Shown: piece by piece, positions 33,482-38,598 of the stretch
Numbering within the stretch: position 1 is the stretch's first letter
How the letters are laid out: the number at the start of each line of letters is the position of its first letter
From: a virus
Length of the DNA: 46,115 bases
IMG/VR virus record: IMGVR_UViG_3300047585_000016
Coordinates: 1-46,115 of that record
Reading direction: 5' to 3' (one strand)
The notes under the pieces: model-generated
Seen by the model: the letters and a program-made list of their open reading frames with translations, nothing else
What the model was told of the DNA's origin: nothing
Database searches by the model: none
Translations under genes and position numbers: made by a program

Positions 33482-34857
33482 TGCTTCCTCCGTTTCATAG
33501 CGAGTAGTAAGGCGTCTTGCACGTTGCGCTTCGCGACTAGCGCGTCTACAGCGTCTTCCTCGATCGTATCGGCGGCCACAATGTCGTATACATAGACAGA
33601 CCTACCAAAACCTGCTTGCAACTGCCGCATGGGGCCGATTCGCTCAAGCATTTGCATCTCTTCTCCGAGATTCCAGCCACGCCCGTACCTGACGAGAATG
33701 TTCGTAACATTCTGGAGACCGTCAATTCCGTGGCCCATGCTCTTAGGATGCGCAAGGCCCATAGGTGCGTTGCCCGATCGGAAAGCATGCATTCCTTCAG
33801 CGCTATTAATTTCGACAGCGCCTGGAAAAGCGGCTTTAATTCTCGCCACGTCGGATTTAAATGCGTAAGAGACGAGTAGCGGAGTGCCACCAGACTCACC
33901 CACAATGGATCGTAGAGCCTCAATCTTTTCATCGTGTACTCCTACCCACTGGGGGTAATCAGTGTAGACCGCGCCGTTCGCCAACTGCAAGCACTTGTTG
34001 GTGAGTGCCGCAGCATTGAATACTTCCACATCCTCACCATTTTCTAGCGTGGCGAAAAGTTCCTTTTCCAACGCTTTGTAAATCTTACGCGCCTTCTCCG
34101 GCAGCTTCACATTGATCCGCGTGACGATAGGGTCCTTCAAGTCGAAGTAGTCCTTGGTGTCAATCGTGATACAGATATCTTTAAGCGCCGCATGGATCTC
34201 CTTATCGGCGTGCGGCATCGGCTCGATACTAAAGCCATTCCAACTCTGACGAAACCACCGATCCGTGAATGAGCTGTACGTGCGACCCAAGCGCGCGCCG
34301 CGGTCCAGAAACCATGTCTGGCCCCACAAATCTTTCAAACCGTTGGGGGATGGTGTCCCGGTCAAATTGATCCATCGATCGGTCAAGTTGTGCGCGATCC
34401 GCCCTAAGCTTCTGGCGCGCTGCCCGCCTTGCCTCGATCGGAAGCCCTTTAGTCTGTCGCTTTCGTCTGCTATTACGTTTCTGAATGGCCATTTGTCACC
34501 GAAATGTTCTACAAGCCATGGGGCAAGTTCGTAGCTGCATGTGAAAATGTCTACACTTTTGGTTCTAAGTTTGTCGCTTCGCTCACATGGCGTACCTGTA
34601 AGGGGCACGATGCGCAAGTCTCGAAACTGTTCCCAGCGCGAAATATCCTCGGGCCAAGTATCTCGGGCAACTCGCATCGGGCCAAGCACAAGCCACGGCT
34701 CATTTCCCCCTTCTCCGAGTATTGACAGTAGTACAATTAAATATTCCATTGCAGAAGTTTTGCCACTGCCCATCCCGGCCCAGATTGCGCAGCGCTTGTG
34801 ATCGCGCGCGAAGTCTATCATGGGCTGCTGGATGGGCCGTAAGACTAGAGGCTGCAC
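33478..34857 (-). CDS. SNF2-type DNA helicase/translocase
   Basis: 459 residues from GTG 34857, overlapping the nuclease gene by 13 bases. Motif I IWAGMGSGKTSA (about residues 25-36), motif II VIADESDRLK, motif III NLTGTPSPNG, and the C-terminal region RYGRGWNLGEEMQMLERIGPMRQ, where the usual QRxGRxxR arginine motif appears as ERIGPMRQ. Superfamily 2 phage replication helicases of this length lie next to VRR-NUC and family A polymerase genes in other phages. It likely remodels replication forks. Confidence 0.9.
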   Translation of the reverse strand: MQPLVLRPIQQPMIDFARDHKRCAIWAGMGSGKTSAMEYLIVLLSILGEGGNEPWLVLGPMRVARDTWPEDISRWEQFRDLRIVPLTGTPCERSDKLRTKSVDIFTCSYELAPWLVEHFGDKWPFRNVIADESDRLKGFRSRQGGQRARSLGRIAHNLTDRWINLTGTPSPNGLKDLWGQTWFLDRGARLGRTYSSFTDRWFRQSWNGFSIEPMPHADKEIHAALKDICITIDTKDYFDLKDPIVTRINVKLPEKARKIYKALEKELFATLENGEDVEVFNAAALTNKCLQLANGAVYTDYPQWVGVHDEKIEALRSIVGESGGTPLLVSYAFKSDVARIKAAFPGAVEINSAEGMHAFRSGNAPMGLAHPKSMGHGIDGLQNVTNILVRYGRGWNLGEEMQMLERIGPMRQLQAGFGRSVYVYDIVAADTIEEDAVDALVAKRNVQDALLLAMKRRKQ

Positions 34858-35123
34858 AGAAATTTATCAACCTGTTCGCAAGTCCATAATACTTCGACGC
34901 GGAAACCGAGCCGGCGCAACATCTTGTGGTGTCGTGCCTGCCACGACTTCAATACGCCATCCGGCGCTTTGGTTTCAACGAATATGATGCGTGCGCCGTC
35001 CATTAATACGATCTCATCAGGCGGACCTACGCGCCCCGGCGATACCCACTTCAGACATTCGCCGCCGCGATCCTCGACACCTGCGCGCAATCTGTCTTCT
35101 ACCTTATTTTCGGTAACGCGCAC
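34845..35123 (-). CDS. VRR-NUC domain nuclease
   Basis: 92 residues. GTG 35123 is preferred to ATG 35246 because AAGGA stands 8 bases upstream, the overlap with the polymerase falls to 20 bases, and 90-100 residues is normal for the phage form. Motifs: GVEDRGGECLKWVSPGRVGPPDE (the P-D carboxylate) and IFVETKAP (ExK), the catalytic set of PD-(D/E)xK nucleases, with LKSWQARHHKMLRRLGF as family tail. It probably cuts branched DNA at replication or recombination. Confidence 0.88.
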   Translation of the reverse strand: MRVTENKVEDRLRAGVEDRGGECLKWVSPGRVGPPDEIVLMDGARIIFVETKAPDGVLKSWQARHHKMLRRLGFRVEVLWTCEQVDKFLCSL

Positions 35124-37155
35124 TGGTAAATCCTTTGGCGGCAATGGGCATTCCTTCAGCCCATAATGAGCTTGAATTAACAAGTAGTTCTGATAATCGT
35201 TTATCTGTGTAGCTGTCGCTGTCAGGGGGTTCGGTGATTGCTTCATCGTGTACGCTCAAGATTGGGTTGTATCCGGCACCGTCTGCGGCAAGCAGTCCGT
35301 CCATGAGGATATCGGCTCCAACACCTTCAGCGATATTTTGACACCGTTTACCCGAATACGTGCCGATGCGGGTCCATTGTCGCGTGTAAGGACAAATTCC
35401 CATGAAGCTGCTGGAGTAGTCATCGCCACGTGGCGCTGGATAACTAAGATAGCGTCCGCTAGGGAGTCTGATACGAAGCCAGTTTCCTTGTCGATCAACT
35501 GATATGTGATGTCCAACTTTGTACTCCTTGTTTTTCACTTTGAGCGCCATGCCGCACGCTTGGTCGAGGCCGGCCCAGAAGTTGCAAATCGCCGGATGTG
35601 CCGCGCGCCACATCAGCACTAGAGCGTGACACACGGTCCAGACACGTTCTTCGAGACCGTAGTCACGACGCTGCTTCAACGCTTTGTGCCATGCAATCTT
35701 GCTTGCTTGTTTGAAATTCTCTGGAATTATAGGCCATGCAGCGATAGCAAGTTCAGCCAAGCGTAAGCCGTAGGTCTCGGCCATAGAGCAGAACGCACCG
35801 ACGCCCCCATAATATTGGAGGGCCAGTTCCATGACTTTTCCGATCTGGCGTTCGAGGGAGTCGTCTCCGATTGAATTCGGATCAACGCCGAAAGGGCGAG
35901 CATAGGCAAGCTTGTACGTGTCCGGTCCTTCACCTCGATCATACGCTTCAAACGCCTCTAGTTTCCAAGTCTCGCCGGCAACCCACGCGATAATACGACT
36001 CTCGATACTCTTCAAGTCGCTCGTTACGAGTTTAGAGCCTTTTTCGGCGACGATAAGTCCTCGGAGGGCGGAGCTGGCAAGTCCAAGCACGTCGTCCGGG
36101 TCATAGAGATCGATCGCCCCTGCGTGGAACATTTTGATTGCGCAGTCAATATCCCATTGAGAATGCTTAGGTCGAGGGAGATTGTGAGGTTGCAAAGTTC
36201 GGCCGGCCCATCTACCAGTCCGCGCAGCGCCGCAGAACACAAGGAGACCTCTAAGTCGCCCACCAACGTGTTGGTTAATTGCTCGCTGATACTTAGCAGT
36301 ACTTGCCTTGCTAGCCTGTTGTCTGACACGTAGTAGTTCCTTGATGTGCTCGGGTAGCGATTCATCTTCGAGCCTGCGCTCAACCGTGTCCGCCGTCAAG
36401 TCGGGAAGATGCACGCCATATTCGGCGCAGTACATGCGCAGGCGTTGGACTTGCGTGGTGCGCTCGACTGCGCTGTCCGTCAGCAGCTCAGTGGTGTCCG
36501 CCATGCGCTGCTTGGCAAGTGTCGTTGCCTTCACGCACTCTTCGGCAAGCTTCAAGTCCACGGCGACGCCGCGATCATTCATTCGCTGGTCAAGGTGCCA
36601 CATTGCCCACATGCGAGGCGTTGAGTTCCACTTAGGCGTGGCGCGCCACACTGCACGCATAGCATAGATGTCCGTGCCTGCATACGATAGGAACTGGTCC
36701 CATTCAAATGGGTGCGAGTGACGATCGTTATAAGTCCCATCTTTTTTAGGTTTGCTAAAGAGGGCGATCCACTCTTTGCCGAATTTGTCCTTAGCTTCAT
36801 TGTCAGTCACCTTAAATACTTGGCAGAGCTTGTCGAGTGAACCCATGAGGCCGTGCATGCGAGCGAGCGCTGCGGTACAGTGCCACTTCTCAAGCGGCAC
36901 TTTGGGCCACCACCAAGTAGTTGCAAGCATGGTGCGGTCGAATGCGGCTTCGTGCGCCCAGATTTCATCGGCTTGCTCAGCCGCTCGGATCAACTCTTGG
37001 ACGGCGGCCAGCCAAGCTTCGGTCAAATCGCAGACAGTGACCGGCCCGTCGTCCACGGCCCACTGCACCATGATGATTTCGACAGTCTCCGCGTACTTCG
37101 CATTGCCGTACTTGAAGTTCGGTCCTCGCGTCTCGCAGTCAATCCAAAGTTTTAT
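35104..37155 (-). CDS. Family A DNA polymerase with exonuclease domain, ATA start proposed
   Basis: 683 residues if started at the ATA at 37155-37153. The exonuclease motif I, LWIDCETRG (Asp 6, Glu 8), lies upstream of the first usual start codon (ATG 37071), and GGAGAGAA stands 3 bases before ATA; ATA also overlaps the previous stop (ATAA). Other motifs: EAAFDRTML (ExoII), YAGTDIYAM (ExoIII), SDLKSIESRII (polymerase A, about residue 375), RQIGKVMELALQYYGG (B) and ILSVHDEA (C, about 637). It replicates the phage genome. A sequencing error changing ATG to ATA is the main alternative. Confidence 0.9.
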   Translation of the reverse strand: MKLWIDCETRGPNFKYGNAKYAETVEIIMVQWAVDDGPVTVCDLTEAWLAAVQELIRAAEQADEIWAHEAAFDRTMLATTWWWPKVPLEKWHCTAALARMHGLMGSLDKLCQVFKVTDNEAKDKFGKEWIALFSKPKKDGTYNDRHSHPFEWDQFLSYAGTDIYAMRAVWRATPKWNSTPRMWAMWHLDQRMNDRGVAVDLKLAEECVKATTLAKQRMADTTELLTDSAVERTTQVQRLRMYCAEYGVHLPDLTADTVERRLEDESLPEHIKELLRVRQQASKASTAKYQRAINQHVGGRLRGLLVFCGAARTGRWAGRTLQPHNLPRPKHSQWDIDCAIKMFHAGAIDLYDPDDVLGLASSALRGLIVAEKGSKLVTSDLKSIESRIIAWVAGETWKLEAFEAYDRGEGPDTYKLAYARPFGVDPNSIGDDSLERQIGKVMELALQYYGGVGAFCSMAETYGLRLAELAIAAWPIIPENFKQASKIAWHKALKQRRDYGLEERVWTVCHALVLMWRAAHPAICNFWAGLDQACGMALKVKNKEYKVGHHISVDRQGNWLRIRLPSGRYLSYPAPRGDDYSSSFMGICPYTRQWTRIGTYSGKRCQNIAEGVGADILMDGLLAADGAGYNPILSVHDEAITEPPDSDSYTDKRLSELLVNSSSLWAEGMPIAAKGFTSARYRK

Positions 37156-37310
37156 GGCTTCTCTCCGCCGGAATGTGGATAAGGCACGCCAAGCTTTGAA
37201 AGTTGCAGCGCAGTCTTTATCATGTCATTCACTTTGCCTTGCACATGAGCCTTATCCGGCTGATTTGCCAGCGCCTCAGCAAATTCATCCCAACTACGTG
37301 GCGCGCTCAT
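37152..37310 (-). CDS. Small helical protein before the polymerase (52 aa)
   Basis: Start at ATG 37310 (ATGA overlap), not the longer in-frame start at 37382. Sequence MSAPRSWDEFAEALANQPDK then KVNDMIKTALQLSKLGVPYP. No family recognised. Its TAA overlaps the proposed ATA of the polymerase. Confidence 0.55.
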   Translation of the reverse strand: MSAPRSWDEFAEALANQPDKAHVQGKVNDMIKTALQLSKLGVPYPHSGGEKP

Positions 37311-38038
37311 ATGCCGGTGTCCGCGTTGGCTGCATCCGGGAACGCGGCAACATGTCCTATGATGGCGCCGGCACTCAGCCACATACTATCCTCGATCTTC
37401 ACATCATCCGGCTTGTTTACGCCGGGGATGAACTCGTGCACATCTCCCGTGCAAAGATCGACCATGTAGCCCGTCGTGCGGGACACAATGTCGCCAATCA
37501 TGTCAGGTGCAGAGAACAGACCCGGATAGTGGTGCTCAAGACATGGGTGCGTATGAACTGTTGCTACGATATCCCAATCCTCTGGCGTATTAGCGTTGAT
37601 GCGTACGCTGTCGCCCGAATAATCCGTGCGCGCAGGGCCGACAGCAAACCTACCGTGCGGGTCCTTAGCGATGAATGTGGAGCACTCATAATAGTGCGAG
37701 CATTGTTCGAGTCGCGCGGCGGCATACATTGCCGCCTCATGTACTGTATCGAATCGATGCCATCCGCTAGTCGCATTGAGTTGATCGACCACTGCTTCAG
37801 GCGTCTGTCGTTGCATATCTCCAGGATTACGACAACCCATGAAAAAACGGTGGCCTTCCACTTCGACATACCACGGTGCGGTGCCGGGTTGCGTGTCACA
37901 GTTCAGATGACTGTAGAGTCCTTGGATCGCATCGCCCGGCCCGCGGTTTGTGCAACCGAAGAGCAGTAAAGCTAACACGACATAGAAGCCAATACATGAT
38001 GCTACTATGACCATCCATGCTGTTCTGCGATAACCCAT
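37307..38038 (-). CDS. Membrane or lipoprotein with JAMM-like (DUF4329-type) domain
   Basis: 243 residues. Residues 8-30 are a membrane segment (MVIVASCIGFYVVLALLLFGC) that ends like a lipobox. From about residue 95: AAMYAAARLEQCSHYYECS, then DIVATVHTHPCLEHHYPGLF followed by SAPD, which has the H-x-H ... S-x-x-D pattern of JAMM metalloproteases, with an upstream glutamate available. The spacing to the serine is 11 residues against the usual 10. It resembles the DUF4329 family in my recall. A membrane-anchored zinc peptidase in a replication module is unusual. TAATG overlap with the methyltransferase. Confidence 0.65.
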   Translation of the reverse strand: MGYRRTAWMVIVASCIGFYVVLALLLFGCTNRGPGDAIQGLYSHLNCDTQPGTAPWYVEVEGHRFFMGCRNPGDMQRQTPEAVVDQLNATSGWHRFDTVHEAAMYAAARLEQCSHYYECSTFIAKDPHGRFAVGPARTDYSGDSVRINANTPEDWDIVATVHTHPCLEHHYPGLFSAPDMIGDIVSRTTGYMVDLCTGDVHEFIPGVNKPDDVKIEDSMWLSAGAIIGHVAAFPDAANADTGI

Positions 38039-38598
38039 TAAGTTCTCCCGTAAAGTTTTCGAGCTTCAGCCTCATCTGGTCGTAACTCGCGCGACGGTGT
38101 GCCCTTGATAATACGCTTCGGGCGCTCGCATACAAGGACCCAAGGGTACGCGTAGTGGATCACTGGCATATTGACGAGTGCGGGATACTTCCCGTGACAA
38201 TCTTCAATCAGGTAAACACCTTGACATCGCGGCCATAAGTTGCCGAATGATATCTCCTGATCCTCGGGCATGTGCGAGCCGTCATCGATCACAATGTCGA
38301 ATGGACCCAGTGATACAATAACGGGGTCTTTTTGATCATACTTGTAGATGTTGATTTGCGTCTCCGCGTATAGACGACAATCTTCAATGTCCACACCGAT
38401 GATCTCGGCGCCGTGGCCGAAATACCGCTTCCACAATTGGAGCGAGCCGCCGTGGTCAATGCCAAGTTCCAACACGCGCGGCGACTTGCCACGGAAGCGC
38501 GCGAAGTGCTTCTCATAAATCGGTATGTAATGAAGCCATTTATCTATCTGGCGTCCGGTGTGGGACTCGAACATATCCATCAACGACATTTCTTTCAC
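38038..38598 (-). CDS. Class I SAM-dependent methyltransferase-like protein
   Basis: 186 residues. The SAM site RVLELGIDHGGSLQLWKRYF (motif I) is followed by IIGVDIED (motif II acidic residue) and FDIVIDDGSHMPEDQ. This arrangement is that of the small-molecule O-methyltransferase and CmcI-like branch rather than of DNA base methylases, since no NPPY/DPPY or PC motif is seen. Target unknown. ATGA overlap with the gene before. Confidence 0.75.
   Translation of the reverse strand: MKEMSLMDMFESHTGRQIDKWLHYIPIYEKHFARFRGKSPRVLELGIDHGGSLQLWKRYFGHGAEIIGVDIEDCRLYAETQINIYKYDQKDPVIVSLGPFDIVIDDGSHMPEDQEISFGNLWPRCQGVYLIEDCHGKYPALVNMPVIHYAYPWVLVCERPKRIIKGTPSRELRPDEAEARKLYGRT

Follow-up and report, generated by a model that had tools for sequence, protein, structure and literature searches.

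Few natural start codons are as weak as AUA, and bacteria rarely use it. In Staphylococcus aureus, AUA starts have been described for infC, ccpN, and citZ, and AUA reporters of ccpN and citZ reach approximately 10% of the AUG level, rising to as much as 30% with ccpN when the medium is rich (PMC13009471). For Escherichia coli, the figure quoted for AUA is at most 1% of the AUG level, and rpoS with an ATA start shows a loss of up to 5-fold (PMC12864459). A comparison of 61,358 ancestral AUG starts revealed switches to GUG, UUG, CUG (2), and AUU (1), with AUA unmentioned (PMC5622118). As gene callers do not propose AUA, the background rate of such starts is poorly known. Overlapping stop/start pairs, in turn, are commonly coupled by termination–reinitiation (Huber et al., 2019; PMC6728339), and experiments with mutant initiator tRNAs have demonstrated that ribosomes can reinitiate at codons other than AUG (PMC2268962). 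In a small search of open papers, no report turned up of a four-nucleotide overlap that restarts at AUA.

The locus described here is found in a single viral record of 46,115 bases from an environmental phage (IMGVR_UViG_3300047585_000016), analyzed over its whole length and referred to below as the window. The best reading of its sequence is that a DNA polymerase gene very probably has a real AUA start, coupled to a small upstream ORF via a four-nucleotide ATAA overlap. The polymerase family, AUA starts, and four-nucleotide overlaps are each already known; it is the ATAA geometry that is unusual.

The polymerase frame and its upstream junction

The polymerase frame is open on the minus strand from the in-frame stop TGA at 37227–37225 down to 35104, and the rest of it is clean. 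With the ATA at 37153–37155 as the putative initiation codon, the gene occupies positions 35104–37155 and encodes 683 amino acids. The 23 sense codons that base-by-base reading places between the upstream TGA and the ATA include no ATG, GTG, TTG, CTG, ATT, or ATC. The first canonical in-frame start codon is the ATG of M29 (37069–37071, minus strand), 28 codons downstream of the ATA; a list of conventional-start ORFs opens the polymerase there, and we consider this codon a probable non-start. The next near-cognate codon after the ATA is ATT at 37143–37141 (codon 5), which also precedes the DxE exonuclease motif. At the other end of the gene, a VRR-NUC endonuclease gene (34845–35114) appears to start with GTG at 35114 and to share 11 nt with the end of the polymerase gene.

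The first-pass annotation described the ATA as overlapping the preceding TAA, with GGAGAGAA standing three bases upstream, and both details hold base by base. The TAA of the upstream ORF (37154–37152) and the ATA (37155–37153) together form the four-nucleotide ATAA at 37152–37155 of the minus strand, and GGAGAGAA is followed by gcc, ATA, and the codons for WIDCETRG. The Shine–Dalgarno core GGAG (37163–37166, minus strand) lies inside the upstream ORF, 7 nt before the ATA, with an anti-SD duplex energy of -6.6 kcal/mol; the mRNA structure around the polymerase start is ordinary (z = 0.46). The upstream ORF itself (37152–37310, minus strand; 52 amino acids, MSAPRSWDEF...GGEKP) has no family match and is joined by ATGA to the preceding gene, a 243-aa ORF (37307–38038, minus strand) with a weak match to DUF4329 (28.1 bits, cut-off 28.6).

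The slot between the methyltransferase gene and the polymerase (37152–38598) is variable and holds different inserted genes among relatives: none in L025, a 67-aa ORF in L023, and the DUF4329-like gene with the 52-aa ORF in the window. In two other relatives, L003 (2056–2085) and L004 (208–237), gagaagcc precedes a TTG start, as it precedes the ATA in the window; unlike in the window, the upstream frame there lacks a stop and reads through into the polymerase.

Start codons of relatives and the exonuclease site

In order to see where related genes begin, the polymerase was compared with approximately 30 polymerases from viral contigs (59–75% identity). Most of these genes initiate exactly at the codon that aligns with the ATA, predominantly with ATG but with TTG in L001, L003, and L004 and with GTG in L005 and L045. 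Eight relatives (L023, L028, L029, L031, L035, L041, L047, and L066) start one to five codons before this position. The ATA-aligned start of L001 and of L044 follows immediately on a stop codon, and hence no upstream initiation is possible there. All relatives examined initiate upstream of the equivalent of ATG 37071, none at it. This alignment, together with the conservation of residues 2–28 and the second ATA case considered below, supports the initial proposal that the polymerase probably starts at the ATA. A scan with the pattern xTG-x-L-W-x-D-x-E-T detected at least 54 stretches encoding the family; all 54 of the matches listed have a canonical initiator (42 ATG, 7 GTG, and 5 TTG) and align from residue 1. 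When bacterial genomes were scanned with a profile, no relatives came up.

The DxE motif (WIDCETRG) does lie 5′ of the first in-frame ATG, GTG, or TTG, as had been noticed earlier, and is present in the product only if translation starts at the ATA or the ATT. Its codons, D6-C7-E8, occupy positions 37132–37140 of the minus strand, and neither D6 nor E8 varies across 33 sequences, among them cultured phages at 42–45% identity. Compared with L023, residues 2–28 have dN of 0.15 and dS of 1.12, that is, changes per site are mostly synonymous, and thus this segment evolves as protein.

The product matches the DNA polymerase family PHROG 17 (phrog_17) at 2.9e-90 over residues 3–682; the match to Pfam PF00476 is sub-threshold (21.1 vs. 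34.3 bits). An AlphaFold model, built from the window and viral-contig rows only, with the cultured-phage rows left out, has a mean pLDDT of 90.6, and residues 2–10 form in it the first strand of the exonuclease fold (pLDDT 96). The best Foldseek match is 1d8y (probability 1.00, E-value 1.3e-16), and comparison with the Klenow structure 1kfd gives a VIA Z of 23.2 and rmsd of 3.8 over 490 aligned residues. The range of the latter alignment places residue 1 at Klenow position 350, and D6 and E8 at positions 355 and 357 if it is ungapped there; D355 and E357 make up exonuclease motif I of Klenow. By sequence match and predicted fold, the protein is a family A DNA polymerase with a Klenow-like fold over its N-terminal 3′–5′ exonuclease domain and polymerase domain.

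A start at 37071 would produce a polymerase without the first exonuclease strand and the D6/E8 site, in agreement with the earlier statement that the first canonical ATG costs 28 residues and part of the active site. It is very improbable that such a polymerase, devoid of exonuclease motif I, is what the gene encodes, whether as the sole product or as a short form next to the full-length one. ATG 37071 is indeed the first canonical start, and the annotators of gp32 from Burkholderia phage BcepC6B chose the equivalent codon despite an ATG 28 codons earlier; however, this start removes invariant residues, the lost segment is under purifying selection, GGAG is 15 nt away, and the relatives begin upstream.

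The BcepC6B gene (L050, NC_005887.1, 1501–1584) is annotated 28 codons short, at the equivalent of M29, with exonuclease motif I lost from the annotation, and its frame opens with ATG (MKLWLDTETF). As its position 1 is ATG, we rejected it as a third non-canonical start.

A second ATA junction and alternative explanations

A viral contig from a separate metagenome, L018 (IMGVR_UViG_3300014838_000182), encodes a polymerase 72% identical to that of the window and has ATA at the homologous position, with GGAG 7 nt upstream (SD -5.8 kcal/mol). The junction reads cggagagaagccATAAAACTT in the window and cggagcaaagtcATAAAACTC in L018, and the two share the same layout, namely, gene, ATGA, small ORF (52 and 50 amino acids, respectively), ATAA, and polymerase; no homology is visible between the two small ORFs, and neither has family hits. 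With the codon and geometry identical in a second, distinct phage, the ATA pattern goes beyond chance. In L018, an in-frame TTG nine codons upstream of the ATA has a poor SD (-1.5 vs. -5.8 kcal/mol), so the ATA is not the sole option there; the window has no such option.

The search for further cases used the above pattern with ATH as the initiator, and of 13 stretches in the whole collection, one was a real polymerase, that of L018, bringing the ATA-start polymerases found to two. Four ATA/ATH patterns applied to viral contigs and one applied to genome contigs gave nothing beyond L018, and scans with Phe for Trp, TTA/TTG for Leu, or F/Y after the motif gave no additional ATA-start polymerase. 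The other ATA/ATH matches were rejected as having no long downstream frame, lying inside a longer canonical ORF, or being unlike this polymerase.

In the polymerase tree, the sister of the window is L023 (support 100/99), whose polymerase starts at ATG in an ATGA overlap, and L018 branches elsewhere. Thus, the ATA state has either arisen twice or moved by local recombination; one ATA junction could have been carried into both lineages by local recombination at the 5′ end. We find it rather doubtful that this phage group has repeatedly converted the ATGA junction before the polymerase to ATAA, with AUA working only when the small ORF is translated. If true, this would represent a built-in throttle on the polymerase level, systematically missed by gene callers.

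The same contig bears on the possibility of a sequencing or assembly error that hides a true ATG in an ordinary ATGA junction. ATG and ATA are one base apart (G to A), ATGA stop/start junctions are common in the window genome, and the overlap between co-directed genes at the polymerase start, ATAA in the window and L018, is ATGA in L025, L067, L032, and L039. Nevertheless, the presence of ATA in the same layout in L018 makes an error highly unlikely, as it would demand a second error at that very base in a contig from another metagenome, and the remaining polymerase frame is clean.

Still less probable is an N-terminus produced by a -1 frameshift out of the 52-aa ORF or by initiation at the near-cognate ATT 37143. 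The two frames are open together for approximately 70 nt, and the ATT still precedes D6, but a search of the 52-aa ORF gave no slippery heptamer of the form X XXY YYZ, the small ORFs of the window and L018 differ as noted and are missing from some relatives, and the SD before the ATT is poor and at the wrong spacing (-2.7 kcal/mol). Similarly, AUA is a weak start codon, but there is hardly any chance that it marks a crippled start of a gene being lost or replaced by another polymerase, given 683 intact codons, dN low relative to dS in comparison with relatives, and the same state in a second lineage. Reassignment of ATA to Met was rejected, as internal ATA codons fall mostly in Ile/Val columns and never in a Met column; a special initiator tRNA encoded by the phage was rejected as well, no tRNA gene having been found in the window.

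Proposed mechanism and comparison with known systems

Taking the real AUA start as the preferred reading, we infer from the arrangement of the junction that initiation occurs at AUA and is coupled to the upstream ORF. Ribosomes would translate the 52-aa ORF and terminate at the UAA within the AUAA overlap, the GGAG Shine–Dalgarno sequence would hold them at the junction, and restart on AUA with the initiator tRNA would then yield the full 683-aa enzyme with its proofreading site intact. Weak, coupled initiation at AUA is the likeliest mechanism in view of the published AUA efficiencies, the coupling of stop/start overlaps, and reinitiation at non-AUG codons. The same efficiencies (PMC13009471, PMC12864459) make it plausible that the AUA start keeps polymerase output low, and at the E. 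coli value this output could be very low. As for the origin, the ATA may have come from the ATG of an ancestral ATGA junction by one G-to-A change; such a change would only swap the TGA stop of the upstream ORF for TAA, an easy one-step route.

Gene callers limited to ATG, GTG, and TTG cannot call AUA and hence would cut off part of the polymerase proofreading site. Catalytic residues of polymerases can thus drop out of annotations, BcepC6B gp32 being an example of the same loss by a different route. The putatively AUA-started replication gene shared by two phage lineages provides a natural experiment on whether AUA can serve for restart where stop and start overlap.

Among the described systems, S. 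aureus infC, ccpN, and citZ resemble the phage case in having AUA behind a Shine–Dalgarno sequence under bacterial-type translation; they are cellular genes supported by ribosome profiling and reporters, whereas the AUA start of the phage polymerase is deduced from sequence and lies in the ATAA overlap. Termination–reinitiation at ATGA shares with the window the four-nucleotide stop/start overlap and an SD inside the upstream ORF, but the overlaps described there use ATG (ATGA, TGATG) (PMC6728339), whereas the window combines a putative ATA restart codon with a TAA stop. The homologous full-length polymerases of Burkholderia phage BcepC6B (gp32) and Bordetella phage BPP-1 (Bbp42), at 42–44% identity, start at ATG, and that of the window, by our reading, at ATA. 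Finally, T7 gp5 carries DxE within its first ten residues, as D5/E7, compared with D6/E8 in the window, a likeness drawn from the published T7 data and the general fold; in the T7 enzyme, changing both residues lowers exonuclease activity about a million-fold (PMC8867116).
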